Notes under the pieces: generated by a model
The model's input: only the letters and a program-made list of their open reading frames with translations
Databases searched by the model: none
Told to the model about the DNA's origin: nothing
Shown: positions 4,845 to 25,677 of the stretch, one piece after another
How the letters are laid out: every line of letters begins with the position of its first letter
How positions within the stretch are numbered: position 1 is the first letter of the stretch
Assembly: GCA_947625495.1 (NCBI GenBank)
Contig: CANQOQ010000016.1
Span: forward strand, 1-32,056
Source: Candidatus Gastranaerophilales bacterium
GTDB lineage: Bacteria > Cyanobacteriota > Vampirovibrionia > Gastranaerophilales > Gastranaerophilaceae
Length of the DNA: 32,056 bases
Direction of reading: 5' to 3'
Made by a program: the position numbers and the translations under genes

Positions 4845-5930
4845 ATGGAACACGCATATATTCATATACCGTTTTGCAAAAGAAAATGCAGATATTGTTC
4901 GTTTGTTTCGGGAGTTAATATAGAATTCAAGGAACAATATATAAAAGCACTATTAAAAGAAATAAAACAGGAATATAAACAAGAGAAATTAAAAACTTTG
5001 TATATAGGGGGAGGAACTCCGTCCTTACTTGATATTGACGATTTAAGCAAAATAATTTCCTTTTTTTCTTTTTATGAAAACGCCGAAATAACCCTTGAAG
5101 TGAACCCTGAAACCGTTGAAAAAAATAAATTTAAAGAAATTAAATCAATGGGAGTGAACAGAATTTCTTTAGGTGTTCAAAGTTTTAATGATGAAATATT
5201 AAATATAATAGGCAGAAATCATACAAAAGAAACAATATATAAGGCATTTGAGACATTAAGACTTGCGTCTTTTGACAATATAAATATTGATATTATATAT
5301 GGGCTTGTCAATCAATCGTTTGAAGTGTTTAAACAAGATGTTGAAAACAGCATTATACTTGGTAGTGAACATATTTCGGCTTACGGTTTAAAAATAGATG
5401 AAAATTCATACTTCTACAAAAATCCTCCCTCTAACCTGCCCGATGACGAAACTCAGGCGCAATATTATGAATATTTATGCAAAAGATTTAAAGAGAATAA
5501 TTATAAACACTATGAAATAAGCAATTTTGCAAAAAACGGGTATGAGTCAAGGCATAATCTTGCATACTGGCAAAATAAAAATTATCTCGGATTCGGCTTA
5601 AATGCAAGCGGATACATAAATAATATCAGATACAAAAATCAATCCGAATTTGATAAATATATATATAACCCGTTGAAAAAAGAAGAAGAAACAGCTCTTA
5701 CTCAAAGTCAGATTAAGGAAGAAGAAATATTTTTGGCCTTAAGACTTAATGAAGGTATTAATATCAATGAAATAAACAATAAATTTAACATTGATTTTTT
5801 AAATGATTACAAAAAAATAATAAAAAAATATCAGGATTTAAATATGCTGGAAGTTAAAAATAACCGCTGCAGGTTAACTTTAAAAGGAGTACTTTTAAGC
5901 AGCGAAATAATGAGTGAATTTATTGACTAA
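4845..5930 (+). CDS. hemW: HemW-like radical SAM protein (heme chaperone; often annotated coproporphyrinogen III oxidase)
   Basis: A 361-aa radical SAM enzyme. The N-terminus carries IHIPFC-KRK-C-RY-C (C11, C15, C18), which binds the 4Fe-4S cluster, with IPF upstream as in HemN/HemW. Next come the GGGTPSLL SAM-binding motif (about 56-63), LEVNPE and GVNRISLGVQSFND, and a C-terminal winged-helix-like HemN_C region ending with LTLKGVLLSSEIMSEF. The length and single cluster motif fit HemW, a heme-binding chaperone, rather than the longer HemN oxidase. It lies divergently from rimI with only a short gap, and its stop overlaps the stop of the opposite-strand gene that follows. Confidence 0.88.
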   Translation: MEHAYIHIPFCKRKCRYCSFVSGVNIEFKEQYIKALLKEIKQEYKQEKLKTLYIGGGTPSLLDIDDLSKIISFFSFYENAEITLEVNPETVEKNKFKEIKSMGVNRISLGVQSFNDEILNIIGRNHTKETIYKAFETLRLASFDNINIDIIYGLVNQSFEVFKQDVENSIILGSEHISAYGLKIDENSYFYKNPPSNLPDDETQAQYYEYLCKRFKENNYKHYEISNFAKNGYESRHNLAYWQNKNYLGFGLNASGYINNIRYKNQSEFDKYIYNPLKKEEETALTQSQIKEEEIFLALRLNEGININEINNKFNIDFLNDYKKIIKKYQDLNMLEVKNNRCRLTLKGVLLSSEIMSEFID

Positions 5931-6640
5931 TTTTCTTTTTGCTGCATTCCCACTTTAGACCCTGCAATAATAAAAGTTAAAGGCAGGATTTTAGAAGTAA
6001 CCGAAGATATGGAAGGTACATCTTTTAAAAGCATACTCGCCGTAAGACATAAATCATCAGCGTGAACCAAATAATCCTCGGGTTTAACATCATGCTTAAT
6101 TTCTTCTTTAAATATTTTATTGTTAGCTTTATTTACTATTTTATTACCTATTTCCATACCGCTGACTAAAGTAATAACCGTAGCGGCGACTCTCGGCAGC
6201 ATATTTATTATTCGGTTTAAAACTTTAAATCCGCCGTTTGAAGAAGGGATTTGAGGCATTTTTATATTTGTTTTATCCAAAATTTTATTAACAACGGCAA
6301 GCATACTGACCGGAACAAATATACTTCCGATATACTGCTGAGCTGCTTCTCTTAATTTGTATTTATGATTTTCTTTATTTTTATCAGATAAAATACCGCC
6401 GGTAAGTCCGCCCGTAACGGCACCAAGCCCAACCATAAGGACATCTTTTTCATCATAAGTCAAATTTTTTAGAGCCAGTGAAGGATTTTTAGTTTTTGCA
6501 AGCGCATAAACAACTCCCACACCTGCGCCTATACCTGCCAAACCGCCTATAATAGATGCCGTAGTGACCTTTTTTTTGTTTTTCTTATTATTATTAATGT
6601 TTGCTCTTGAAGCTGTTATTGCTTCTATTACGTTAGACAC
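5927..6640 (-). CDS. Glycine-rich membrane protein of unknown function
   Basis: A 237-aa protein starting at GTG 6640 behind a GGCGGAG ribosome binding site. Residues 1-25 are basic and rich in Asn/Lys. Residues 28-48 (SIIGGLAGIGAGVGVVYAL) and about 70-85 (GLGAVTGGLTGGI) are glycine-zipper-like hydrophobic segments. Two or three further hydrophobic stretches follow (FVPVSMLAVV near 110, LPRVAATVITLVSGMEIG near 150, and a C-terminal ILPLTFIIAGSKVG). A soluble helical segment near 165-210 contains HDVKPEDYLVHADDL. I do not recognise a named family. Glycine zippers are common in pore-forming and membrane-association segments. It is monocistronic and convergent with hemW, overlapping by 4 bases. 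Confidence 0.75.
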   Translation of the reverse strand: MSNVIEAITASRANINNNKKNKKKVTTASIIGGLAGIGAGVGVVYALAKTKNPSLALKNLTYDEKDVLMVGLGAVTGGLTGGILSDKNKENHKYKLREAAQQYIGSIFVPVSMLAVVNKILDKTNIKMPQIPSSNGGFKVLNRIINMLPRVAATVITLVSGMEIGNKIVNKANNKIFKEEIKHDVKPEDYLVHADDLCLTASMLLKDVPSISSVTSKILPLTFIIAGSKVGMQQKEN

Positions 6641-6777: not shown

Positions 6778-7533
6778 ATGATTGATACACATTCACATAT
6801 TAATTTTGAGGAATACAGAGAAAATTTTGATGATTTTATATCGGAGCTTAAAAAAAACGATATAGAAAAAGTAATAATACCGGGGGTAGAACCTTCAACT
6901 TTTAATGAAATTATAGAACTGTGCGAAAAATATGATATGTTATACGGTGCAATCGGCATACATCCTTCTGAATTTAATACTTATAATTCTGATTCCGAAA
7001 ACGAGATAAAAAAACTGTTATCGCACAAAAAAATTACAGGTATTGGTGAAATAGGCCTTGATTATCACTACGGCATAGACAGTAAAGAAGAACAAAAAGA
7101 TATTTTAATAAAACAGCTTGAAATAGCCCAAGAGTTTCAATGTCCCGTAATAATACACGATAGAGAAGCTCATGATGACTGCTTTAATATTATAAAAGAA
7201 TTTAATTTGAAAGATGTCATTTTTCACTGTTTTTCAGGTGACGTTAATTTTGCAAAAAAATGTATTGATAACGGTTTTTATATAGCAATTGGCGGTGTGG
7301 TTACGTTTAAAAATGCTAAAGAACTAAAAGAAGCTGCCAAATATGTTCCCTTAGAAAGACTGCTTCTTGAAACAGACGCACCATATCTTGCCCCTGTTCC
7401 ATTCAGAGGCAAAATAAATTCACCTCTTTATTTAAAATATATAGCTCAAGAAATAGCTTTATTAAAAGATATCGACACGGAAACGGTAAAAAAATACACA
7501 ACGGATAATGCGAAAAAGGTATTTAAACTCTGA
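6778..7533 (+). CDS. tatD: TatD-family metal-dependent DNase
   Basis: A 251-aa TIM-barrel hydrolase of the TatD/YcfH type. Metal ligands are visible: MIDTHSH at the N-terminus (H5, H7), GEIGLDYHY with the bridging Glu near 92, a His in PVIIHDREA near 128, FHCFSGD with a His near 153, and LLLETDAPYLAP with the catalytic Asp near 203. Members have 3'-5' exonuclease or D-aminoacyl-tRNA deacylase-like activity and act in DNA repair or quality control. Its TGA overlaps the ATG of tlyA (TGATG), so the two are translationally coupled. Confidence 0.92.
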   Translation: MIDTHSHINFEEYRENFDDFISELKKNDIEKVIIPGVEPSTFNEIIELCEKYDMLYGAIGIHPSEFNTYNSDSENEIKKLLSHKKITGIGEIGLDYHYGIDSKEEQKDILIKQLEIAQEFQCPVIIHDREAHDDCFNIIKEFNLKDVIFHCFSGDVNFAKKCIDNGFYIAIGGVVTFKNAKELKEAAKYVPLERLLLETDAPYLAPVPFRGKINSPLYLKYIAQEIALLKDIDTETVKKYTTDNAKKVFKL

Positions 7534-8342
7534 TGACAAAAGAAAGACTTGATAAAATACTGACAGAAAAAGGATATTTTGACACCAAAAGTAAAGCCCA
7601 AGCCTCAATTATGGCGGGAGATGTTAAAATAGACGGAAATACAATAACAAAAGCCGGTTTTTTAATTGAATTAAAAGAGAATACAAATATTGAAATAAAG
7701 ACAATGCCGTTTGTATCAAGAGGCGGATTTAAACTAGATAAAGCAATAAAAGAATTTAATATTAATTTGAATAATAAAATATGCCTTGATGCGGGTGCCT
7801 CTACGGGGGGATTCACCGACTGCATGCTGCAAAACGGCGCAAAAAAAGTATACAGCGTAGATGTCGGCTACGGTCAAATAGCGTGGAAGCTCAGAACCGA
7901 TTCGAGAGTTAAAGTAATTGAAAAAGTAAACATAAAAAACTGCCCCGAATCAGCAATTTATTCATCTAAAGACGAAAAAGCCGATTTTATTACAATGGAT
8001 TTATCTTTTATTTCAATAACAAAAGTTTTAAATAATATTATAAAACTGGCGGATAAAAGCAGTTTTGAAATAGTGTCATTAATTAAACCGCAGTTTGAAG
8101 CGGGCAGAGAACAAGTCGGCAAAAACGGAATCGTGAAAGAAAAACAAACCCATATTCAAGTAATAAACAATATTATAAATTATGCAAAATCAATCGGATT
8201 AAATATAAACGGTTTAACCTATTCACCTATTAAAGGCACCAAGGGGAATATAGAATATTTAATTTATCTTTCGAATAAAGATGAATCAATAGAAATAAAT
8301 ACGGAACAAATCGTAAATGAAGCGCACGAAAACAATTACTGA
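7533..8342 (+). CDS. tlyA: TlyA-family rRNA 2'-O-methyltransferase
   Basis: A 269-aa protein with an N-terminal S4 RNA-binding domain (about 1-60, starting MTKERLDKILTEKGYF) and an FtsJ-type methyltransferase domain. SAM motif I is CLDAGASTGGFTDCML (about 88-103). Other blocks are VDVGYGQIAWKLR, DLSFIS and LIKPQFEAGR, matching the K-D-K-E fold class of 2'-O-methyltransferases. TlyA methylates 23S (and in some lineages 16S) rRNA at C1920/C1409-type sites; older annotations call it hemolysin A. It is coupled to tatD and converges with the small XRE gene, overlapping it by 7 bases. Confidence 0.92.
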   Translation: MTKERLDKILTEKGYFDTKSKAQASIMAGDVKIDGNTITKAGFLIELKENTNIEIKTMPFVSRGGFKLDKAIKEFNINLNNKICLDAGASTGGFTDCMLQNGAKKVYSVDVGYGQIAWKLRTDSRVKVIEKVNIKNCPESAIYSSKDEKADFITMDLSFISITKVLNNIIKLADKSSFEIVSLIKPQFEAGREQVGKNGIVKEKQTHIQVINNIINYAKSIGLNINGLTYSPIKGTKGNIEYLIYLSNKDESIEINTEQIVNEAHENNY

Positions 8343-10308: not shown

Positions 10309-12750
10309 ATGTTTGAACGTTTTACGGAAAAGGCTATAAAAGTAATAATGCTTGCACAAGAAGAAGCAAGAAGACTGGGTCATAATTTTGTAGGTACGGA
10401 ACAAGTTCTTCTGGGATTAATAGGCGAAGGCACCGGCGTTGCAGCAAAGACATTAAAGACAATGGGTGTTACACTAAAAGATGCCAGAGTAGAAGTTGAA
10501 AAAATTATAGGCCGAGGTTCAGGCTTTGTTGCGGTAGAAATTCCTTTTACGCCTAGAGCAAAAAGAGTATTAGAACTATCTTGGGATGAAGCAAGACAGT
10601 TAGGACATAATTATATAGGAACAGAACATCTTCTTTTAGGGTTAATAAGAGAAGGTGAGGGAGTTGCTGCAAGAGTACTTGAAAATTTAGGAGTTGATTT
10701 AAATAAAGTAAGAAGCAATGTAATAAAAATGCTTGGAGAAACAAAACCGACACAAACATCAACTGCATCAACTGCTTCATCAGGCAAGACAAAAACCCCG
10801 AGTTTGGATGAATTCGGAACGGATTTAACCTTAGCAGCCCAAGAACAGCGCTTAGACCCTGTTGTAGGCAGAGAAAAAGAGATAGAACGTGTAATACAAA
10901 TATTAGCAAGAAGAACCAAAAATAACCCCGTATTATTAGGTGAACCCGGTGTTGGTAAAACTGCGGTTGTTGAAGGTTTAGCTGCAAGAATAGTAAATTC
11001 TGAAGTACCTGATATATTAGAAGGCAAAAAAGTTGTACAGCTCGATATGGGGCTTTTAGTAGCAGGCACCAAGTATAGAGGTGAGTTTGAAGAACGTCTC
11101 AAAAAGATTATGGATGAAATCCGCCAGGCCGGTAATATAATTCTTATTATAGATGAAATGCACACTCTAATCGGAGCAGGTGCAGCTGAAGGTGCAATAG
11201 ATGCGGCTAACATACTTAAGCCGGCTCTATCAAGAGGCGAAATTCAGGTTATAGGTGCTACAACTCTTGATGAATACAGAAAATACGTAGAAAAAGACCC
11301 TGCTTTAGAGAGAAGATTCCAATCTATTATAATAGAAGAACCTTCCGTTGAAGATACAATCGAAATTATAAAAGGCTTAAAACCAAAATATGAAGACCAT
11401 CATAAACTAAAAATTTCGGATGAAGCAATTGTAGCTGCAACAGAACTTTCATATAAGTACATAACAGACAGATTTCTGCCTGATAAAGCTATAGATATAA
11501 TAGATGAAGCAGCATCAAAGTTAAGAATACAAACAAGTGCGCTTCCTCCTGAAGGAAAAGAGCTTGAAAAACAATTAAAAGCAATAATAAAACAAAAAGA
11601 AGATGCAATAAGAAATCAAGAGTTTGAAACAGCTTCGAACCTTAGAGATGATGAAGCGGATTTAAAAGAAAAAATACGTGAAATGTCTCTAAAATGGAGA
11701 GAAGATAATGAAGAAAATAAACCTACGGTAACCGCAGAGCAGGTAGCTCAGGTTGTAAGCCAAATGACAGGTATTCCTACAACCAAAATTACCGAGGGTG
11801 AAAGTGAAAGATTATTAAAACTTGAAGAAACTCTTCATAACAGAGTAATCGGACAAGATCAGGCTGTTGTCGCTTTATCAAAAGCAATAAGACGTGCAAG
11901 AGTCGGTTTAAAATCACCTAATAGACCAATCGGAAGTTTTATATTCTCAGGGCCCACGGGTGTAGGTAAAACAGAACTTGCAAAAGCATTGGCAGAAGCC
12001 GTTTTTGGTTCAGAAGACAATATGATTCGTGTTGATATGTCTGAATTTATGGAAAAACATTCAACAGCGAAATTAATCGGTGCGCCTCCCGGATACGTAG
12101 GATATGATGACGGCGGTCATTTAACAGAGCTGATAAGAAAGAAACCCTACAGCGTTATACTGTTTGATGAAATCGAAAAAGCTCATCCCGATGTATTTAA
12201 TATAATGCTTCAAATATTAGATGACGGACGTTTGACCGATTCTAAAGGCAGACATGTCAACTTTAAAAATACAATTATAATTATGACAAGTAACGTCGGA
12301 GCGAGCATGATTACCAATACAAGCAGACTTGGTTTTGCCGTTGCCGAAGATGAGCAGAAAGATAAATATGAAAAATTAAAAGATACCGTTATGGAAGAAA
12401 TGAAAAAAGCCTTCCGTCCCGAATTCTTAAACAGAATTGACGATATTATAGTATTTGCTCATTTATCCAAACCTGAAATTCGTCAAATTGTTGATTTAAT
12501 GCTAAAAGACTTGTTTAAACGCTTAGAATCACAAAATTTAACAATAGAAGTAACGGATGAAGTAAAAGATTACTTGGGTGAGGCAGGATACTCTGAAGCA
12601 TACGGAGCAAGACCGCTAAGACGTTTAATACAAAAACGTATAGAAGACGGGTTGGCGGAAGAAATCTTATCCGGCAAGTATACTGAAGGTAACAAAATCG
12701 TGCTGAAACTGAAAGATGAAAAAATTATCTTTGAATGTGAAAAAGCATAA
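10309..12750 (+). CDS. clpC: ATP-dependent Clp protease ATP-binding subunit ClpC
   Basis: An 813-aa Hsp100 unfoldase that feeds substrates to ClpP and acts in protein quality control. Order of parts: two Clp_N repeats (about 1-145, each with LGHN(F/Y)(V/I)GTE), and a Ser/Thr-rich linker. Then comes AAA1 with Walker A GEPGVGKT near 210 and Walker [10 protein letters not shown] near 277. A middle segment holds a UVR motif ([20 protein letters not shown], about 440-460) that defines ClpC against ClpB. AAA2 carries Walker A GPTGVGKT near 548, [10 protein letters not shown], and the C-terminal sensor GARPLRR. The usual mcsA-mcsB-ctsR neighbours of Gram-positive clpC are absent, as in cyanobacterial-type loci. 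AGGAG precedes the ATG; a TATAAT sits at 10275-10280; a strong terminator follows. Confidence 0.98.
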
Positions 12751-15638: not shown

Positions 15639-16691
15639 TTATGTCCACTCAGACAATTCACGTTTTGAAAAGCCCCATTCTATAGGCTTACCATGGAAAC
15701 AGATATTATGACATTGTTTGCAAAATCTGCATAACGGCTTTGGAGAAGAAATAAAATCATTAATTTCTTTTGCCTCTTTTACATCACTTATTTTAATATA
15801 ATCCTCTTTTTCTATAGGAATATTAAGTTTAAAATATTTACTAAAAGCACCTATATGTGCATGAATCCAACAATAATAAAAATTACCTCTTGCATAAGAA
15901 ACACCAAAATCTCGACCGAATTCTTTATGTATACAGTTATATCTTTTTTCAATATAATCTTGACTTCCTGTTATATCTATAACAGGTTTACCCCAACAGT
16001 GACAGGTTTCAATATTTATATTTTCTTTACTAAATTCTATATCCTGTTTACCCCAACAGTGGCAGTTTTTAGTATTTAAATTTTCTTTGCTTACTTTTCG
16101 TGTTTTTAAATCATAGAGTTTATCACTATATATCACATCGTTTCTGTAATTTATGCCATATTTTTTTGCCCTATTTTCTCCAATACTTCTGTCAATATCA
16201 ATAGGATGATTTGTAACCTGTATTTCCATATCAGCATTTTTTGCTGCCAGATAGAATTCTTCATCCATGTCTTTTAGCAATATACCGTTAGTAAGGATTT
16301 TTTTCTTAGAGTTAGGGAATAATTCAGCGGTTAAATTAATCATTTTTGTAATATCAGGATTTAACAGCGGTTCACCCCCTATGAAAATAATAGATATATC
16401 CTTATTCGGAAATAAAGCTTTTATTTTTCTAAAATCTTTTTCAAATTGTTCATATTCAATAAATTCTTGCTTTGATAAAGGAGAAAATGCATCACAACTT
16501 TTACAGTTTAAATTACAATGAGATGCTGCTTCTACAAATATTTCTTTAAGGTTACCGTTACTTTCAATGTATTTATAAGCATTTTTTTGGTTGCGAGGAG
16601 GGATTATTTTTTTGTATTTATTATTTAAATCAGAAAGTATATAACCTGCTAAAAAACAAGAAATACTACATATAAAATTTCTCCTCTTCAT
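15639..16691 (-). CDS. Radical SAM protein with N-terminal membrane segment and internal repeat
   Basis: A 350-aa protein. Residues 1-20 (MKRRNFICSISCFLAGYILS) form a basic start plus hydrophobic stretch, like a membrane anchor or a degenerate Tat-type leader. The radical SAM core follows: C59-x3-C63-x2-C66 (CNLNCKSC), FIGGEPLLNP, and ILTNG. Residues near 200-245 hold a 20-residue tandem repeat, each copy with KEN-N----CHCWGK, encoded by a 60-bp duplication. The C-terminus is cysteine-rich (PLCRFCKQCHNICFHG), suggesting an auxiliary Fe-S cluster as in SPASM-type proteins. The substrate is unknown. It lies tail to tail with tRNA-Glu and is divergent from a GT2 gene, so a cell-surface or peptide modification role is conceivable but unproven. 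AAAGGAG precedes the ATG. Confidence 0.78.
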   Translation of the reverse strand: MKRRNFICSISCFLAGYILSDLNNKYKKIIPPRNQKNAYKYIESNGNLKEIFVEAASHCNLNCKSCDAFSPLSKQEFIEYEQFEKDFRKIKALFPNKDISIIFIGGEPLLNPDITKMINLTAELFPNSKKKILTNGILLKDMDEEFYLAAKNADMEIQVTNHPIDIDRSIGENRAKKYGINYRNDVIYSDKLYDLKTRKVSKENLNTKNCHCWGKQDIEFSKENINIETCHCWGKPVIDITGSQDYIEKRYNCIHKEFGRDFGVSYARGNFYYCWIHAHIGAFSKYFKLNIPIEKEDYIKISDVKEAKEINDFISSPKPLCRFCKQCHNICFHGKPIEWGFSKRELSEWT

Positions 16692-18595: not shown

Positions 18596-20065
18596 TTATA
18601 ATATCAATACTAATAATAAAATTAAAGATATACAAAATAAAATAATAGATATAAATAAAAATATATTAAAAAGTTTTTTATATTTTTTGTGTTTTTTACT
18701 ATGCTTATTTATTCCTATATTTAATTCTATATCTTTAAAATATTCAGAATATTTATTCTGTAATATTTCTAATTCATTAAATTTATTATTTTTTAAATAA
18801 GCGAAATAAACATCTCTTAATACATTAATAAAAACATCCTTATAATATTGCGGAAATAGGTCTTTTATTTTATTCCATACCAAATAAGAAAAATTAACTT
18901 CTTTAATACCATATTTTAAATGAATTTCTTCTGTGGGATTATCGGAAATAGTGTGAGAAATTCCTTGGCTATGCCATCTGTATACATACATAACATCAGG
19001 CAAATATCCGATTTTACCGTGCCTTGAAACCGTAATATGAGTATACCAATCACCCGGATATATGTCTGTGGGATAATCTTTGAGCTCGGATTTTAAATAT
19101 TCTGCTCGATAAACAACTGAACTTGCCGGAATATTATTACATTTAATCAAATTATAATAAGGCTGTGGATTTTTATATTTTGATTTACCTATAATAACCG
19201 GAGGCGAGCTTTTATCTTCATATATCATTTTTGCCGGATGATAACAAAGAACATAATCCGGATGTGATTCTAAAAAATCAACTTGTTTTTGAAGCTTATA
19301 TTCATCGCACCAATAATCATCCCCGTCACACAAAGCGATGTATTTTCCTTCTGCTCTCGGAAATTGAAAAGTTTTTGATATAAGATTTTTTTTGCTATAT
19401 TGATTTTCTAATTGATATATCGGTTTAATAATACTCGGATAATTATTTTCATATTCTCTTATAATTTCTTGAGTGCCGTCAGATGAAGCATCATCATTAA
19501 TTAAAACTTCAAAATTAAAATTTGTTTTTTGCGAGATAATTCTTTTTAAGCATTCGCCTATGTATTTTTTATGATTATAAGTTGCGCAACAAATTGAAAC
19601 CAAAGGGTGAATTTTTGCTTTAAGTATTTTCTCAAATAATATTTTTTCGCTTGATACCACTGTTCCTTTGTATGAATTTTTTACATAAAAATTTACACCT
19701 TGTTTGTTTGATTTAAAACATTCCAGTCTTATTTTACCTATCTTGCGCTCAAGTGCCATATTCTCCGCTGTTTGTATAAGCTTTGTCCCAATTCCTTGGC
19801 TTTGATATTCAGGTTGAACAACAAAATGTGTAATAAAACCTATATCCTGATTCAGATAAATGCAAAGTAACCCCAAAAGAACACCTTCCGGATTATAAGC
19901 CTCTATAATTTCCGCATTTTTACAAATTTTATCAGCATACTCATTTAAATTTTTTACATAAGAATTCAGATTGGGAGATAAAAAATCATCCCATTCTTTT
20001 AATATACAACACAGTTGTTGTGTGTTAAGAGTATTTATTTTAATATTACAAGATTGTATAATCAT
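18596..20065 (-). CDS. GNAT acetyltransferase - GT2 glycosyltransferase fusion
   Basis: A 489-aa protein from ATG 20065 (AGGA upstream; a TTG 24 bases earlier is a weaker choice). Domain 1 (about 1-150) is a GNAT: GFITHFVVQPEYQSQGIGTKL gives the Q-x-x-G-x-G acetyl-CoA loop. Domain 2 (about 152-400) is a GT2: PLVSICCATYNHKKYI, INDDASSDGT, and IALCDGDDYW as the metal-binding DxD, then CYHPAKM and WYTHITVSRHG. The C-terminus has a basic stretch (KHSKKHKKYKK) and one transmembrane helix (final 23 residues). The GNAT half resembles the separate GNAT encoded two genes upstream (21045-21500). The fusion suggests that it acetylates the sugar or residue it transfers. Last gene of the operon. Confidence 0.82.
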   Translation of the reverse strand: MIIQSCNIKINTLNTQQLCCILKEWDDFLSPNLNSYVKNLNEYADKICKNAEIIEAYNPEGVLLGLLCIYLNQDIGFITHFVVQPEYQSQGIGTKLIQTAENMALERKIGKIRLECFKSNKQGVNFYVKNSYKGTVVSSEKILFEKILKAKIHPLVSICCATYNHKKYIGECLKRIISQKTNFNFEVLINDDASSDGTQEIIREYENNYPSIIKPIYQLENQYSKKNLISKTFQFPRAEGKYIALCDGDDYWCDEYKLQKQVDFLESHPDYVLCYHPAKMIYEDKSSPPVIIGKSKYKNPQPYYNLIKCNNIPASSVVYRAEYLKSELKDYPTDIYPGDWYTHITVSRHGKIGYLPDVMYVYRWHSQGISHTISDNPTEEIHLKYGIKEVNFSYLVWNKIKDLFPQYYKDVFINVLRDVYFAYLKNNKFNELEILQNKYSEYFKDIELNIGINKHSKKHKKYKKLFNIFLFISIILFCISLILLLVLIL

Positions 20066-20136
20066 CAAGCATTTCCTTAATTTTTTCAACAGGATTAAAC
20101 ATCATTACAATTTATTTATGCAATTTTTCAATATTA

Positions 20137-21048
20137 TCAAAAAATATCGTACCCCCCCCCTGTATGCAGAAATAATATTTTAGAATTTGTAATATTTTTA
20201 TTTGATATAACATAATCGGCGCCAAGCAACGCTTTCCCTGAATAAGTCGGATCTGTTATTATACCGTCTGTTTTATATACATCTTTAATTTTAGTTAATA
20301 TTTCAGAATTATATTTACCGTAACCGCCAAACATATATTCATCAAATATTTCTACTTTTTTATTAATTAAATCGATATTTTCACCATATTTGCCAATATA
20401 CTCTGTTAATGATGAAATTACTTGTTCTTTTTTTCTTGCTATTGAAATTCCTATAAACTTAGTATCAGTAGTTTTTAAACCAAGTAACAAACCGGCTAAT
20501 GTCGTAGCTTGTCCAACCGGTAAAACAATATAATCAAATTCAATATTCATATCATGAAATTGCTGTTTTAACTCTTCACTTGCATTTAAATAAGCTCTGA
20601 TAGGAACATCTTCATTGCCTTTTCCATACTTATCACCATTTATATAGTATGGAGAATATCCTGATGATACGCATTCGTTATATACTATTTCTACCGTATC
20701 GGCTACATTTTCCCTTTTGCAATAATGAATATTAGCATCACACATTTTACAAAGTTCAATATTTATACTTTTAGGATACTGTCCGTCAATATCACAAGGA
20801 ACAATCGTATGACACGGTATGTTATTTGAAGCGCATATATTAGTCAAAATTCTACACAAATTAGAAGATGTACTTCCGTAGGCAATCATACAATTTTTAT
20901 TTTTACCAAGCATGTCTTTATAATATTCATACGCAATACGAACCTTGTTTCCACCAAAAGAAAACGGCAATAAATCATCTCTTTTTATATAAACTTCATT
21001 ATTATTTAATTTCGTTTTCATCTTGATAACAGGTGTTGTGAAATTCAT
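20137..21048 (-). CDS. PLP-dependent ACC deaminase / D-cysteine desulfhydrase-like enzyme, tail interrupted at a poly-G tract
   Basis: A 303-aa protein of PLP fold type II. Recognisable parts: YIKRDDLLPFSFGGNKVR with the PLP lysine at K35, MIAYGSTSSNLCR, LPVGQATTLAGLLLG (phosphate-binding loop), DGIITDPTYSGKALLG and the final LHTGG motif. Relatives deaminate ACC, desulfhydrate D-cysteine or act on other D-amino acids; the substrate here is not predictable. The frame meets nine G in a row (20152-20160 on the plus strand as C) in the HTGG codons and ends 4 codons later (YDIF). Removing one G would instead read GGGT-IFFDNIEKLHK and stop at 20112, which looks more like the normal family C-terminus. 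Overlaps the upstream GNAT gene by 4 bases. Confidence 0.8.
   Translation of the reverse strand: MNFTTPVIKMKTKLNNNEVYIKRDDLLPFSFGGNKVRIAYEYYKDMLGKNKNCMIAYGSTSSNLCRILTNICASNNIPCHTIVPCDIDGQYPKSINIELCKMCDANIHYCKRENVADTVEIVYNECVSSGYSPYYINGDKYGKGNEDVPIRAYLNASEELKQQFHDMNIEFDYIVLPVGQATTLAGLLLGLKTTDTKFIGISIARKKEQVISSLTEYIGKYGENIDLINKKVEIFDEYMFGGYGKYNSEILTKIKDVYKTDGIITDPTYSGKALLGADYVISNKNITNSKILFLHTGGGYDIF
20152..20160. repeat. Homopolymer tract, nine C (nine G in the coding strand)
   Basis: A run of nine C in otherwise AT-rich DNA, inside the 3' end of the PLP enzyme gene. Such tracts change length by slipped-strand mispairing and are classic phase-variation sites in surface-glycan genes. Sequencing error in the run length is also possible. 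Confidence 0.85.
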
Positions 21049-21500
21049 TTTGAAAGCCTCTTTTTAAAAATTATTTTTTCTTTATTCTTGTTTCCGAATA
21101 TTTCAAAGTTATTTTTTTCATACATTGATATCGCCTTTTCATTATCAACCGAACAATTTAATGTGATTGATGTAAAATCTTTTTCTTTGCACTTTGCTTC
21201 TAACATTTTTATTAAGCAAGAAATTATACCCTTTCTTCGATGTTGTTTTTTGCAGTATGCAAGTGTCACAAATGCTTGTTTTGTTTCAAAATCATTTATA
21301 TATGCAATGACTGTTGCGACAAACTCGTTTCCATCCCAAGCTTCAAATGTTGTCGCAAAATTAAGAATTTTTTTTGCATACTCATCTAATGAAATACGTT
21401 CTGATAATTTTGGAGTAAACTCAGAATTACAATTTTTTAAAAAATTCAAGAGTTCATCATAATCTAGCGTATTTATTTTATATATGTATTTATCCAACAT
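21045..21500 (-). CDS. GNAT acetyltransferase
   Basis: A 151-aa single-domain GNAT. The acetyl-CoA region reads AFVTLAYCKKQHRRKGIISCLIKML (about 76-100), with RRKGI as the R/Q-x-x-G loop, followed by ITLNCSVDNEKAISMYEKNNFEIFG, the usual SxxNxxAxxxYexxGF element with NF for GF. The N-terminal part (KINTLDYDELLNFLKNCNSEFTPKLSERI, EYAKKI) is clearly related to the start of the GNAT half of the fusion protein. It overlaps the PLP gene by 4 bases and follows the ATP-grasp gene by 9 bases. A small-molecule or nucleotide-sugar amine as acceptor is inferred from context only. Confidence 0.82.
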   Translation of the reverse strand: MLDKYIYKINTLDYDELLNFLKNCNSEFTPKLSERISLDEYAKKILNFATTFEAWDGNEFVATVIAYINDFETKQAFVTLAYCKKQHRRKGIISCLIKMLEAKCKEKDFTSITLNCSVDNEKAISMYEKNNFEIFGNKNKEKIIFKKRLSK

Positions 21501-21509
21501 TAAAAATCC

Positions 21510-22709
21510 TTATTCTACAACAAGTTTTACAAGTTCATACATTTTTTCCATTAAATCAAATGCTTCTTTTGGATTATTAAATTTTAAAATCATAATACCG
21601 ACCGTAGCATTGGATCCTTTTAGGGTAGTTACCTTTTCGCCAACCTTTTTTATCGGATAAAAATTAATTATATGTTCTTTTTCAAACTCGGGGTCAATTT
21701 GAATATCCTTCAAAACACCATTTTTAAGAGAATGAACAACGTAATATGCTGTGCATTTTGAGCTATGTTCACTGTTTAAATCGCAACAATCTTCGTTTAA
21801 TGCTGCTTTGATGGTATATTCAACTAAATCTACACCTGTGGATTCATATATTGCCTGTGGTCCGCAATTTCCACCATTACGAGTACCTATTTCCATCAAA
21901 TAAACTTGTTCATCTTTGCTGATTCGAGCCTCAAAATTATAAGAACCGGTTTTCATGTTTAGCAAATTAAGTACTTTTTGAATTTCGTTACGCAATTTCT
22001 GATGTAAATGCTTAGGCATCATATTTGGCCATATTGATGCAACCGGAGTGAACGGATTTTCTGCTTTTGGACTAAAATATTGACCTGCAAAAGCACTAAA
22101 AACAAGTTTCCCATCTATTGAAAACCCGTCCCCGTTTATTGAATGAGTATATGATTCTACGTATTCTTCAATAATAACCCTTTTTATACGAGAAAACGAC
22201 ATTGCATATTCAAATGCTTTTTCTAATTCCGATATATTATCTATTTTAGTAATACCTTTTGAACCGGATGAATCAACAGGTTTAACCATTACAGGCATTT
22301 TGAAATTATTAAAATCTTTCTTTGCTTCATTAATATTTTTAAAACCATTTGCCCTTGGAGTATTGAATCCGTTATCTTTCAAAAACGTTCTGAATAAATC
22401 TTTGTTTGATAGTATTTCAACAGATTTGTACGGATGCCCCGCTAAGTTAAGTTTTTCTGCCACATAAGCAGCTGTTGGTGCCGCAGGATCGGAAGCATAA
22501 CAAACTATCCCGTTGATTTTTTCTTTTTTTGCTATTTCTAAAACAGCGTCTTTATCCGTAGTACTAATGTCATAATATTTATCAGCATAGTGTTGTCCCG
22601 GATTGTCAGGCAGATAATCACAAACTATTGTGTAAAACCCCATTTCTTTGGCTTTTTTTATAGCAGGAATTTGAAAAAAAGAACCCCCCAGCATTATTAG
22701 TTTTTTCAT
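21510..22709 (-). CDS. ATP-grasp ligase
   Basis: A 399-aa protein from ATG 22709, which overlaps the aminotransferase stop (ATGA); AAAGGCG lies upstream. The N-terminal pre-ATP-grasp fold starts MKKLIMLGGSFFQIPAIKKAKEMG. ATP-grasp elements follow: MPVMVKPVDSSGSKGI (about 134-149, phosphate loop), VIIEEYVES, and MEIGTRNGG near 280 (Mg-binding E/N motif). Its closest look is to the carbamoyl-phosphate-synthase-L/PurK-like ligases that join an amino acid or carboxylate to an amine. Next to a sugar aminotransferase, attachment of an amino acid to an amino sugar is a reasonable inference, but the substrates are not known. Confidence 0.85.
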   Translation of the reverse strand: MKKLIMLGGSFFQIPAIKKAKEMGFYTIVCDYLPDNPGQHYADKYYDISTTDKDAVLEIAKKEKINGIVCYASDPAAPTAAYVAEKLNLAGHPYKSVEILSNKDLFRTFLKDNGFNTPRANGFKNINEAKKDFNNFKMPVMVKPVDSSGSKGITKIDNISELEKAFEYAMSFSRIKRVIIEEYVESYTHSINGDGFSIDGKLVFSAFAGQYFSPKAENPFTPVASIWPNMMPKHLHQKLRNEIQKVLNLLNMKTGSYNFEARISKDEQVYLMEIGTRNGGNCGPQAIYESTGVDLVEYTIKAALNEDCCDLNSEHSSKCTAYYVVHSLKNGVLKDIQIDPEFEKEHIINFYPIKKVGEKVTTLKGSNATVGIMILKFNNPKEAFDLMEKMYELVKLVVE

Positions 22710-23812
22710 AATTCGCCTTTCAGTATTTCGCATATAGTTTCTATATCTGTTTGCGTCAGTGTGCCATAGTATGGCAAACACAATACCTTGTGTTTCATCT
22801 CATTAACAACACTCAAATCACCTGTTATAACAGAACCTTTGTAGCATTCAAAGTCATTACAAGCAGGGTAAAAATATTTTCTTACCATTATATTTTTTGA
22901 CTTAAAGACATTATAAAGCTCGTCTCTATTTAAAGGATACGGTTTTTCTATAATTATCGGATAATATTGATATGAATTTGTTGTATCCTTTGGCATTTGA
23001 GGAATTCTGATTCCTTTTATTTTTGATAAATTATTATCATAGTATTGTTTAATTCTTGCACGATTTTGCTTTTCTTTTTCAAATATTTTTAAATTTTCAA
23101 GCCCCATTGCCGCTTGAAATTCATTCATTTTTCCGTTTATTCCTATGTCTTCAACAACTTCTTCAGACTGAATACCAAAATTACGAAGATTATAAATTCT
23201 CCTCTTTAAGTTTTCATCATTATATGTTAAGCAGCCACCTTCAATCGTGTTGAATAATTTTGTTGCGTGGAACGAAAACATTGTTATATCACCAAATGTT
23301 CCTATTCCTTGCCCGTCAATTTCCGTCGAAAATGTGTGAGCTGCATCATAAATTACTTTTAAATTATGTTTTTTCGCAATTTTATCAATTTTTTCAACAT
23401 CACAAGGAAAACCATAAACGTGAACTCCCAAAATTGCAGAAGTATTCGGAGTTATTAAACTTTCAATTTTATCAGAATCAATCGTCATTGTATTTGGTTC
23501 AATATCACAAAAGACAGGTTTGCAGTTATTCCATACTATACAATGAGGAGTTGCAGCAAAAGTAAACGGTGTTGTAATAACTTCACTTCCAAAAGGTAAA
23601 TCCATAGCTTTCAAAGCCGTTAATAAAGCTATTGTGCCATTGTTAAACAATGAAACATTCGGAACTTTTAAAACATCTTTCAACTTTGTTTCAAGTTCAT
23701 TATGCTTTACACCCATATTGGTAAGCCATCGAGAATCAAATATATCTTTAACTTCGGAAATGTAATTATCCAAATCAGGCAACAAAGGTCGTGTTACATA
23801 AATTTTATCCAT
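22706..23812 (-). CDS. DegT/DnrJ/EryC1/StrS-family sugar aminotransferase
   Basis: A 368-aa PLP enzyme from ATG 23812 (GGGAG 7 bases upstream; GTG 23818 is an alternative). Key sites: FNNGTIALLTAL, TTPFTFAATPHCIVWNNCKPVFCDI, VIYDAAHTF with the PLP-binding Asp near 156, and FSFHATKLFNTIEGG with the Schiff-base lysine at K185. FGIQ and MNEFQAAMGLENL follow. These enzymes transfer an amino group from glutamate to a keto-sugar nucleotide, made here presumably by the preceding SDR enzyme. The start lies inside the end of the SDR gene (8-base overlap) and the stop overlaps the ATP-grasp start, so all three are coupled. Confidence 0.93.
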   Translation of the reverse strand: MDKIYVTRPLLPDLDNYISEVKDIFDSRWLTNMGVKHNELETKLKDVLKVPNVSLFNNGTIALLTALKAMDLPFGSEVITTPFTFAATPHCIVWNNCKPVFCDIEPNTMTIDSDKIESLITPNTSAILGVHVYGFPCDVEKIDKIAKKHNLKVIYDAAHTFSTEIDGQGIGTFGDITMFSFHATKLFNTIEGGCLTYNDENLKRRIYNLRNFGIQSEEVVEDIGINGKMNEFQAAMGLENLKIFEKEKQNRARIKQYYDNNLSKIKGIRIPQMPKDTTNSYQYYPIIIEKPYPLNRDELYNVFKSKNIMVRKYFYPACNDFECYKGSVITGDLSVVNEMKHKVLCLPYYGTLTQTDIETICEILKGEL

Positions 23813-24719
23813 ATACACACTCCCTTAAATCTTTTAAACCTTTTTTATAATCGGTAAATTCAGTATTTCCAAGTATTTTTAAAGCTTTCTTGTTTGACAA
23901 AATGCTGTCTTTTATATCTCCTACTCGTTCAGGTAAGTAATTTGGCTTTTGTTTATAACCATATATTTTAGACATTTCATCAAATAATTCGTTTAAAGTT
24001 ATACCTTTATTCGTAGAAAAATTAATAATTTCATCTTTAATATCCGATTCAAGGACTTTTAAGCAGATATTGGCTATGTCTTGAACATAAATAAAATCTC
24101 TTATCTGAGCTCCGTCGCCAAAGATATTTATCTGAGTATTTTCCTTCATTGCTTTATCAAAAATTGCGACAACTCCGCTTTCTTTTGAAGATTTTTGCCT
24201 CGGACCATAAGCATTTGAGAATCTGAATATAATATATGGAACATTTGATAATTGAATATATTTTTCCATTGTAAGTTTTGATAATCCATAAGGGCTCATC
24301 GGTTCTGTCGGATGATTTTCGTCAACAGGTAAATATTTTGGATTACCATATACCGCTGCAGATGAAGCTGCAATAAATTTTTTAACATTATATTTCTTGC
24401 AACTCTCTAATAATCTTATTGTTGCCATTATGTTCATATCCGCATCAAAATAGGAGTTTGTGATTGAATAGTTCACGCTTGTTTGTGCAGCTAAATGGAT
24501 TACGTAATCGGGTCTTTCCGTTTCGAAAATCTTTTCTAAATCATCTTTTTCTATATTTATACGATATAGTTTTAATTTATCCAAATTTTTAAGATTAGCT
24601 TCGTCCCCCGAAGACAAATTATCCAAAACAACTGTGCTATAGTTGTTTTGTAACAAATTATCAGTTATATGAGAGCCGATAAATCCCGCTCCGCCCGTAA
24701 TTAAAACTTTTTTAAGCAT
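23805..24719 (-). CDS. NAD-dependent sugar epimerase/dehydratase (extended SDR)
   Basis: A 304-aa Rossmann enzyme of the GalE/RmlB type: GGAGFIG (9-15) for NAD, LAAQTSVNYS near 77-86, SSAAVYG, and the catalytic Y144-x3-K148 (YGLSK). FRFSNAYGPRQ and GDGAQIRDFIYVQDIA, the UDP-sugar-binding region, follow. The ring closes with SILSNKKALKILGNTEF, as in UDP-hexose 4-epimerases and related dehydratases. It would supply the nucleotide sugar to the aminotransferase. The exact reaction (epimerase or 4,6-dehydratase) cannot be fixed; the absence of the dehydratase TDE motif favours epimerase-like chemistry. Overlaps the upstream GT2 gene by 8 bases. Confidence 0.9.
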   Translation of the reverse strand: MLKKVLITGGAGFIGSHITDNLLQNNYSTVVLDNLSSGDEANLKNLDKLKLYRINIEKDDLEKIFETERPDYVIHLAAQTSVNYSITNSYFDADMNIMATIRLLESCKKYNVKKFIAASSAAVYGNPKYLPVDENHPTEPMSPYGLSKLTMEKYIQLSNVPYIIFRFSNAYGPRQKSSKESGVVAIFDKAMKENTQINIFGDGAQIRDFIYVQDIANICLKVLESDIKDEIINFSTNKGITLNELFDEMSKIYGYKQKPNYLPERVGDIKDSILSNKKALKILGNTEFTDYKKGLKDLRECVYG

Positions 24720-25677
24720 GATTTTTCGGTTTCCTTTTAATTTTGAATTTTATCCACAAAATTGTAACGATTTTGTGTGTTTTCTCTGCTGAATTTTTTA
24801 GAGAAAAAATATTTTCAATAAATGAATTTTTAATTTTTAATAAATATTTTTTATAATTTTTTCCTAATAAATTTTTAATTTCAGCTTGATAATCTTTTTC
24901 TGTATTATATGCCTCACCATCAACTAATATGGGAGTAAAAACATTTAATACAGCATCTTTTTCTTGTTGAGTTTTATCCTTAATAATTTCGCAAATATTA
25001 TTCAACATATATAATCTATCTTTTTTTCGTTTTTCTTTTTTTTCAGGGTTTAAACAGATAGATTTAGGATTTTCTCGATAATAGTATTTAACTGTATCCG
25101 TAAATGCAACTTTACGACTCTTTACTAATGTTTCTACCAAAACAGGATTATCTTCATAGTATGTATGTTCTTTAAATCTTATATTTGAAAATAATTCCTT
25201 TTTAAAAAGTTTTGAGCAAGTAGAACCATTAGTTATATATTTCATCTTTTCTACAAAATCAATAATAATTTTATTATCAAAATGATCCATCGGTTTTTGA
25301 TAATCTATACCTGTTCTTGTTAAAGTTCCACAAGCCATATCGGCATCATTTTCTTCGCATAGGTTATATAAAACTTCATAAAAATCAGTATCAAGCCAAT
25401 CATCTGCATCTAAAAAACCAATATATTCACCTGTTGAATTCTCTATTCCGGTATTTCTTGCTCCACCCAATCCCTTATTTTCTTGGCTAATAATTTTTAT
25501 TTGAGGGTTATTTATTGTTTTTAAAAATTCAAGAGTTTTTTCATCTGTTGAACCGTCATTTACTAAAATAATTTCAATATTCTTATATGTTTGATTAATA
25601 ACAGAATTTATTGCATTCTCAATATAATCTGTTTCAACATTATATACAGGAATAGTTACAGATATTTTTTTATTCAT
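24712..25677 (-). CDS. Glycosyltransferase family 2 (first gene of glycan operon)
   Basis: A 321-aa GT2 with MNKKISVTIPVYNVETDYIENAINSV at the start, IILVNDGSTDEKT (nucleotide-sugar site), GLGGARNTGIENSTGEYIGFLDADDW (about 70-95, metal-binding DAD), ACGTLTRTG, and YYEDNPVLVET (ED catalytic region near 173). The C-terminal 40 residues are strongly basic (FKIKRKPKN). It is the promoter-proximal gene of the seven-gene unit; its 30-base upstream gap leads into the inverted-repeat-bounded segment at 25707-25877. Acceptor and donor are unknown. Confidence 0.9.
   Translation of the reverse strand: MNKKISVTIPVYNVETDYIENAINSVINQTYKNIEIILVNDGSTDEKTLEFLKTINNPQIKIISQENKGLGGARNTGIENSTGEYIGFLDADDWLDTDFYEVLYNLCEENDADMACGTLTRTGIDYQKPMDHFDNKIIIDFVEKMKYITNGSTCSKLFKKELFSNIRFKEHTYYEDNPVLVETLVKSRKVAFTDTVKYYYRENPKSICLNPEKKEKRKKDRLYMLNNICEIIKDKTQQEKDAVLNVFTPILVDGEAYNTEKDYQAEIKNLLGKNYKKYLLKIKNSFIENIFSLKNSAEKTHKIVTILWIKFKIKRKPKNHA

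Follow-up and report, generated by a model that had tools for sequence, protein, structure and literature searches.

What does a run of nine guanines do at the very end of an enzyme gene in AT-rich DNA? The run lies at positions 20152..20160 on the minus strand (poly-C on the plus strand) of the window, meaning the whole analyzed stretch of 32,056 nucleotides from a Candidatus Gastranaerophilales contig, and direct reading marks it as a candidate slippage site. It falls within an open reading frame for a PLP-dependent enzyme (20137..21048, minus strand; from the ORF list and PF00291) that, in the assembled nine-G state, encodes 303 residues with the C-terminus LHTGGGYDIF. Re-reading the minus strand confirmed the original prediction on this point. 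The nine guanines come after ...LFLHT and code for GGG in the LHTGG motif, after which the frame ends with YDIF and a TGA whose final base is 20137. The length of nine is that of the assembly consensus and may be off by one.

The enzyme belongs to the PALP family PF00291 (103.3 bits against a gathering cut-off of 35; E 2e-29), with the domain spanning residues 5-297 of 303 and the tract beginning at residue 297. Among NCBIfam models and PDB homologues, its nearest relatives are the D-cysteine desulfhydrase / ACC deaminase group (TIGR01275, NF052482, PDB 1j0a, 4d8t), with which it shares a full-length PALP domain, the GGNK lysine motif, and the terminal HTGG. It differs from that group in lying amid surface-glycan genes and in scoring at about half of the curated cut-offs (145.5 bits at G9 and 148.2 at G8 against 289.4 for TIGR01275).

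The genes surrounding the enzyme are all encoded on the same strand. The upstream cluster (21045..25677) consists of a GNAT acetyltransferase (21045-21500), an ATP-grasp ligase (21510-22781), a DegT aminotransferase (22706-23818), an NAD epimerase (23805-24719), and a family-2 glycosyltransferase (24712-25677). The downstream gene (18596..20065) combines GNAT and family-2 glycosyltransferase domains; it likely starts at the ATG at 20065, with AAGGA upstream, and the listed ORF extends to a TTG at 20089. Judged by gene content, the PLP gene likely sits in a surface-glycan cluster. Elsewhere in the window, a radical SAM gene carries an internal 60-bp tandem duplication (15976-16088) in which the residues CHCWGK are repeated.

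A change in length at the tract alters the reading frame and yields three differing C-termini. With eight guanines, the frame reads LHTGGG-TIFFDNIEKLHK (tail 20112..20151, minus strand; stop 20114-20112; 311 residues in total), as predicted from the first reading of the eight-G frame with its stop at 20112. With ten, a third frame that was absent from that reading continues after LHTGGG as VRYFLIILKNCINKL (20105..20151, minus strand; stop 20107-20105; 314 residues in total). Counted past HTGG, the tails comprise 13 residues at G8 (GTIFFDNIEKLHK), 5 at G9 (GYDIF), and 16 at G10 (GVRYFLIILKNCINKL). The catalytic core, with the complete PALP domain and HTGG, is retained at all three lengths. The gene thus has the layout of a C-terminal phase-variable gene, with a tract near the 3′ end and a conserved domain that is complete before the tract in every frame.

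The original prediction also held that the eight-G tail suits the enzyme family better, and to a slight degree it does. G8 scores highest of the three lengths, exceeding G9 by 0.3-2.7 bits in the eight closest NCBIfam models, and G8 alone extends to position 321 of 321 in TIGR01275. The codon score is +1.6 bits for the G8 tail and -9.2 for the G10 tail, where real gene ends have a mean of 2.5 (sd 3.6) and post-stop sequence a mean of -1.6 (sd 4.4). The codons of the G8 tail are coding-like and resemble real gene ends more than post-stop sequence; those of the G10 tail do not. The nine-G form nevertheless has its place in the family. Cyanobacterial homologues end between 4 and about 20 residues past HTGG, some at 4-6 and two at 4, so the G9 end is in the natural range and shows no obvious defect. 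The most apt description of the three forms is that of alternative C-termini.

These comparisons bear on whether the tract acts as an on/off switch, in which active enzyme would come from G8 (or G8 plus multiples of three) alone, G9 and G10 would be dead, and a glycan step would be toggled. The superior family fit and coding-like codons of the G8 form point that way, as do the chain lengths of solved homologues, which extend 8-15 residues beyond the aligned HTGG end. Such a switch is possible but doubtful, given that the PALP domain and HTGG are complete whatever the length and that two natural homologues stop just 4 residues past the motif. Because the core is intact at all three lengths, a change of tail is the likely effect, more so than a clean on/off switch.

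The tract is far from alone in its genome. The host, an uncultured gut bacterium related to cyanobacteria, has a genome of 1.88 Mb, with a GC content of 31% in the 594 kb sampled, and the sampled stretches contain all 40 of the G8-G10 tracts found genome-wide (2 of G8, 24 of G9, and 14 of G10). Runs of G or C in these 594 kb are bimodal in length: 90 runs of five, three of six, and none of seven precede the 2, 24, and 14 runs of eight, nine, and ten. Runs of A or T decay smoothly and have no second peak, and 300 kb of control stretches hold no G/C run above five. Markov models of the same genome give an expectation of about 0.1-3.6 runs of at least eight, against 40 found, and of 0.008-0.66 runs of at least nine, against 38 found. 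Long G runs are indeed improbable in such AT-rich DNA, as the original prediction had assumed, and the G9 of the window is one of these above-chance tracts. The Markov expectation and the bimodal run lengths rule out a chance origin. Congeners have the same gap in run length between five or six and nine; bimodality and gap, in host and congeners alike, set the tracts apart as a class of their own, as opposed to the upper end of a random distribution. A sequencer poly-G artefact is unlikely, since the lengths stay within 8-11, coding sequence continues on both sides, and the two strands are about equally represented.

The genes and promoters that bear tracts are of the glycosyltransferase, acyltransferase, LicD-like, phosphonate, restriction-modification, and adhesin-type classes. 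The poly-G switches of glycan genes that were invoked when the locus was first read thus have their counterpart here, in a genome-wide class that occupies the gene classes then named. Membership of the window tract in a class with in-silico signs of slippage-driven phase variation is supported, and the 40 tracts together look like a genome-wide slippage-switch set for surface sugars and surface proteins. The tract could instead be neutral, a slippery run that the gene tolerates on account of a tail irrelevant to the enzyme. Homologue tails do vary freely in length and sequence, but the concentration of the class in surface and defence genes and its bimodal lengths suggest upkeep by selection, and neutrality is considered unlikely.

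What the tracts do elsewhere in the genome is visible in their consensus states. Thirteen lie mid-gene and are not C-terminal; the frame runs through in 5 of these genes and is interrupted in 8, with open sequence beyond, an in-frame share near the one third predicted under free slippage. Three tandem acyltransferase paralogues share the position of the tract; the G9 copy is in frame, and the other two, both G10, are not. In a TupA-like pair, the G9 copy is in frame and the G10 copy is out, with 60-nt upstream flanks that are 98% identical, and a congener's TupA-like copy is likewise G10 and out of frame. In a cytidylyltransferase-PEP mutase gene the frame is broken at the tract, and the PEP-mutase half remains intact (E 7e-55). 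A LicD-like gene adjoins the cytidylyltransferase-PEP mutase gene at L047:13726-15937, with G10 in both, and the pair may possibly provide phase-variable phosphonate or phosphocholine-like decoration. A phage-type lysozyme gene, assembled with G9, is out of frame, and an additional G reopens 72 codons beyond; a search of viral contigs for strain variants of this lysozyme (L031) returned distant relatives only.

The same paralogues speak to the possibility of an assembly or sequencing error, by which all cells would truly have eight guanines at the window tract and the gene would be constant. Homopolymers of 9-10 are liable to consensus error, and eight is the length of the best-fitting frame. 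Even so, an eight-G run would itself fall in the tract class, paralogues with agreeing flanks differ from their neighbours by at least one G, and other genes would have to be corrected differently (by minus one, by plus one, or not at all), all of which makes such an error improbable.

Length differences are also seen between closely matched sequences in relatives. In the congener G012, two haplotype contigs that are 99.67% identical over 13.5 kb have G9 and G11, respectively, in a promoter-like spacer (L316:12409 and L317:1088); the mismatches between them lie mostly beyond the tract, which indicates two strains. G025 has a pair of copies, one G9 and one G10, whose 60-nt upstream flanks are identical. 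Together with the TupA-like pair, these cases make a good argument that tracts of this kind vary in length in nature, and variation at the window tract would follow by extension from these other loci. A comparable second copy or orthologue of the PLP gene was sought in 57 relatives, the phylum, genome_contigs, and viral_contigs, with nothing usable found.

The remaining tracts of the host illustrate further modes. Promoter tracts, ahead of Kelch and other genes, are arranged as a TTGCNN-type element, Gn, and TAAAAGTGG-TATAAT, giving a spacer of 18 at n of 8, 19 or 20 at n of 9, and 20 at n of 10. C-terminal tracts are found in the window gene and in two DUF1796 genes. Tracts at L047:5154, L050:1333, and L053:3692 stand directly ahead of very large ORFs (2302, 2418, and 1227 aa) that have a leader in common. 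A protein family of 164-172 aa with no Pfam match recurs beside tract-controlled genes (L032:3706-4203, 5768-6262, 7480-7974, and 11559-12053; L042:4414-4908; L047:4457-4975; L050:541-1059).

A G10 tract also lies in a short leader ORF (MFKKPDIMQIVGGG...) common to two unrelated genes, one of them type IIG-like restriction-modification. One leader is at L042:5103-5195 on the plus strand, and the other, on the minus strand, precedes the ORF L049:4108-4989. At G10 the leader stop overlaps the next start (TAATG, ATGA), and at G11 the leader ends about 40 nt earlier, an arrangement that possibly provides phase-variable translational coupling. By analogy, the stop position of the PLP gene might tune translational coupling to the downstream GNAT-glycosyltransferase gene, whose start at 20065 is 40-72 nt from the three stops. 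The two leaders lend this some plausibility, but in the window none of the three frames gets to the downstream start and the downstream gene has its own Shine-Dalgarno-like AAGGA, so a switch acting on the next gene is very unlikely.

Phase variation by frameshift, by promoter change, and by exchange of C-termini has been described (PMC6321876, PMC5320596). C-terminal phase-variable genes are known from Neisseria gonorrhoeae, with the class credited to work on Helicobacter canadensis (PMC5320596). The window gene resembles those of N. gonorrhoeae in its short repeat tract near the 3′ end and in last residues that switch among three frames. It differs in belonging to another phylum, in encoding a PLP enzyme of a glycan cluster, in that its variation is predicted, and in having no fusion to the next gene in any frame. 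As for the tract set as a whole, the poly-G tracts of Campylobacter are 53% G9 and 26% G10 (PMC6321876). The host is similarly AT-rich, with dozens of poly-G tracts that are intragenic or in promoters, lie mostly in surface-glycan and related genes, and peak at nine and ten (24 of 40 and 14 of 40); unlike Campylobacter, it is a Cyanobacteriota relative with many promoter-spacer tracts. Neisseria fetA and porA vary through the promoter spacer (PMC5320596), and several host tracts likewise lie between the TTGCNN-type element and TATAAT, where length alters the spacing. The window tract is coding, however, and the promoter-spacer mode is therefore inapplicable to it.

Slipped-strand mispairing is the standard explanation for simple-sequence contingency loci. 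The window tract is probably such a locus, a poly-G contingency locus in a surface-glycan cluster that would bring about C-terminal phase variation of the PLP enzyme. Mispairing during replication would alter the tract length, mostly by one G per step, and the population would hold enzyme variants with the three alternative tails. The G8 variant is most likely the fully functional form, and at G9 and G10 the enzyme is probably altered or weakened and not cleanly off. Slippage at this particular tract, along with any consequence for the enzyme's activity or the surface glycan, is what we infer from sequence. The original prediction of an enzyme in two forms, or switched, by slippage holds in part: slippage is well supported for the class and likely here, the frames number three, and the on/off element is unproven.

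MutS1 and MutL would be expected to slow slippage, though not to prevent it. Both occur in the host genome and in most of its congeners, whether these bear tracts or not, which excludes loss of mismatch repair as the cause, and the number of tracts varies from 0 to about 170 among related genomes with no link to either gene. By lipoyl synthase, the closest matches of the host come mostly from Candidatus Gastranaerophilales MAGs, with top identities of 73-79%. Tracts of nine or more occur in 36 of the 41 genomes of the genus (0 to 119 per genome) and in 201 of the 241 of the order, where a single genome reaches 176. Most genomes of genera g34 and g35 have few or no tracts, and part of g1 is also among the variable relatives. 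G runs occur in other members of the phylum as well, in raw counts uncorrected for base composition.

Poly-G phase variation is best known in host-adapted Campylobacter, Helicobacter, and Neisseria. The literature searched, which covered few subscription papers, yielded no paper on phase variation in Melainabacteria, Gastranaerophilales, or Vampirovibrionia. The mechanism is already known, and it is the host group that appears new for poly-G phase variation.

The balance tips toward a broader proposal, namely that much of this family of non-photosynthetic gut cyanobacterial relatives may have a simple-sequence contingency system that ranks among the larger ones known. Dozens to ~170 poly-G tracts per 2-Mb genome would be kept despite mismatch-repair genes and would act through promoter-spacer, frameshift, and C-terminal modes, possibly along with a slippery leader peptide coupled to the gene that follows it, in one case a type IIG-like restriction-modification gene. 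The hypothesis of a family-wide tract set is directly testable with existing metagenome reads, and it raises the question of why tracts are nearly absent from some sister genera. If true, it would explain many of the seemingly broken genes in assemblies of gut cyanobacterial relatives, and it would mean that these little-known gut commensals constantly reshuffle their surface glycans, adhesins, and restriction-modification.
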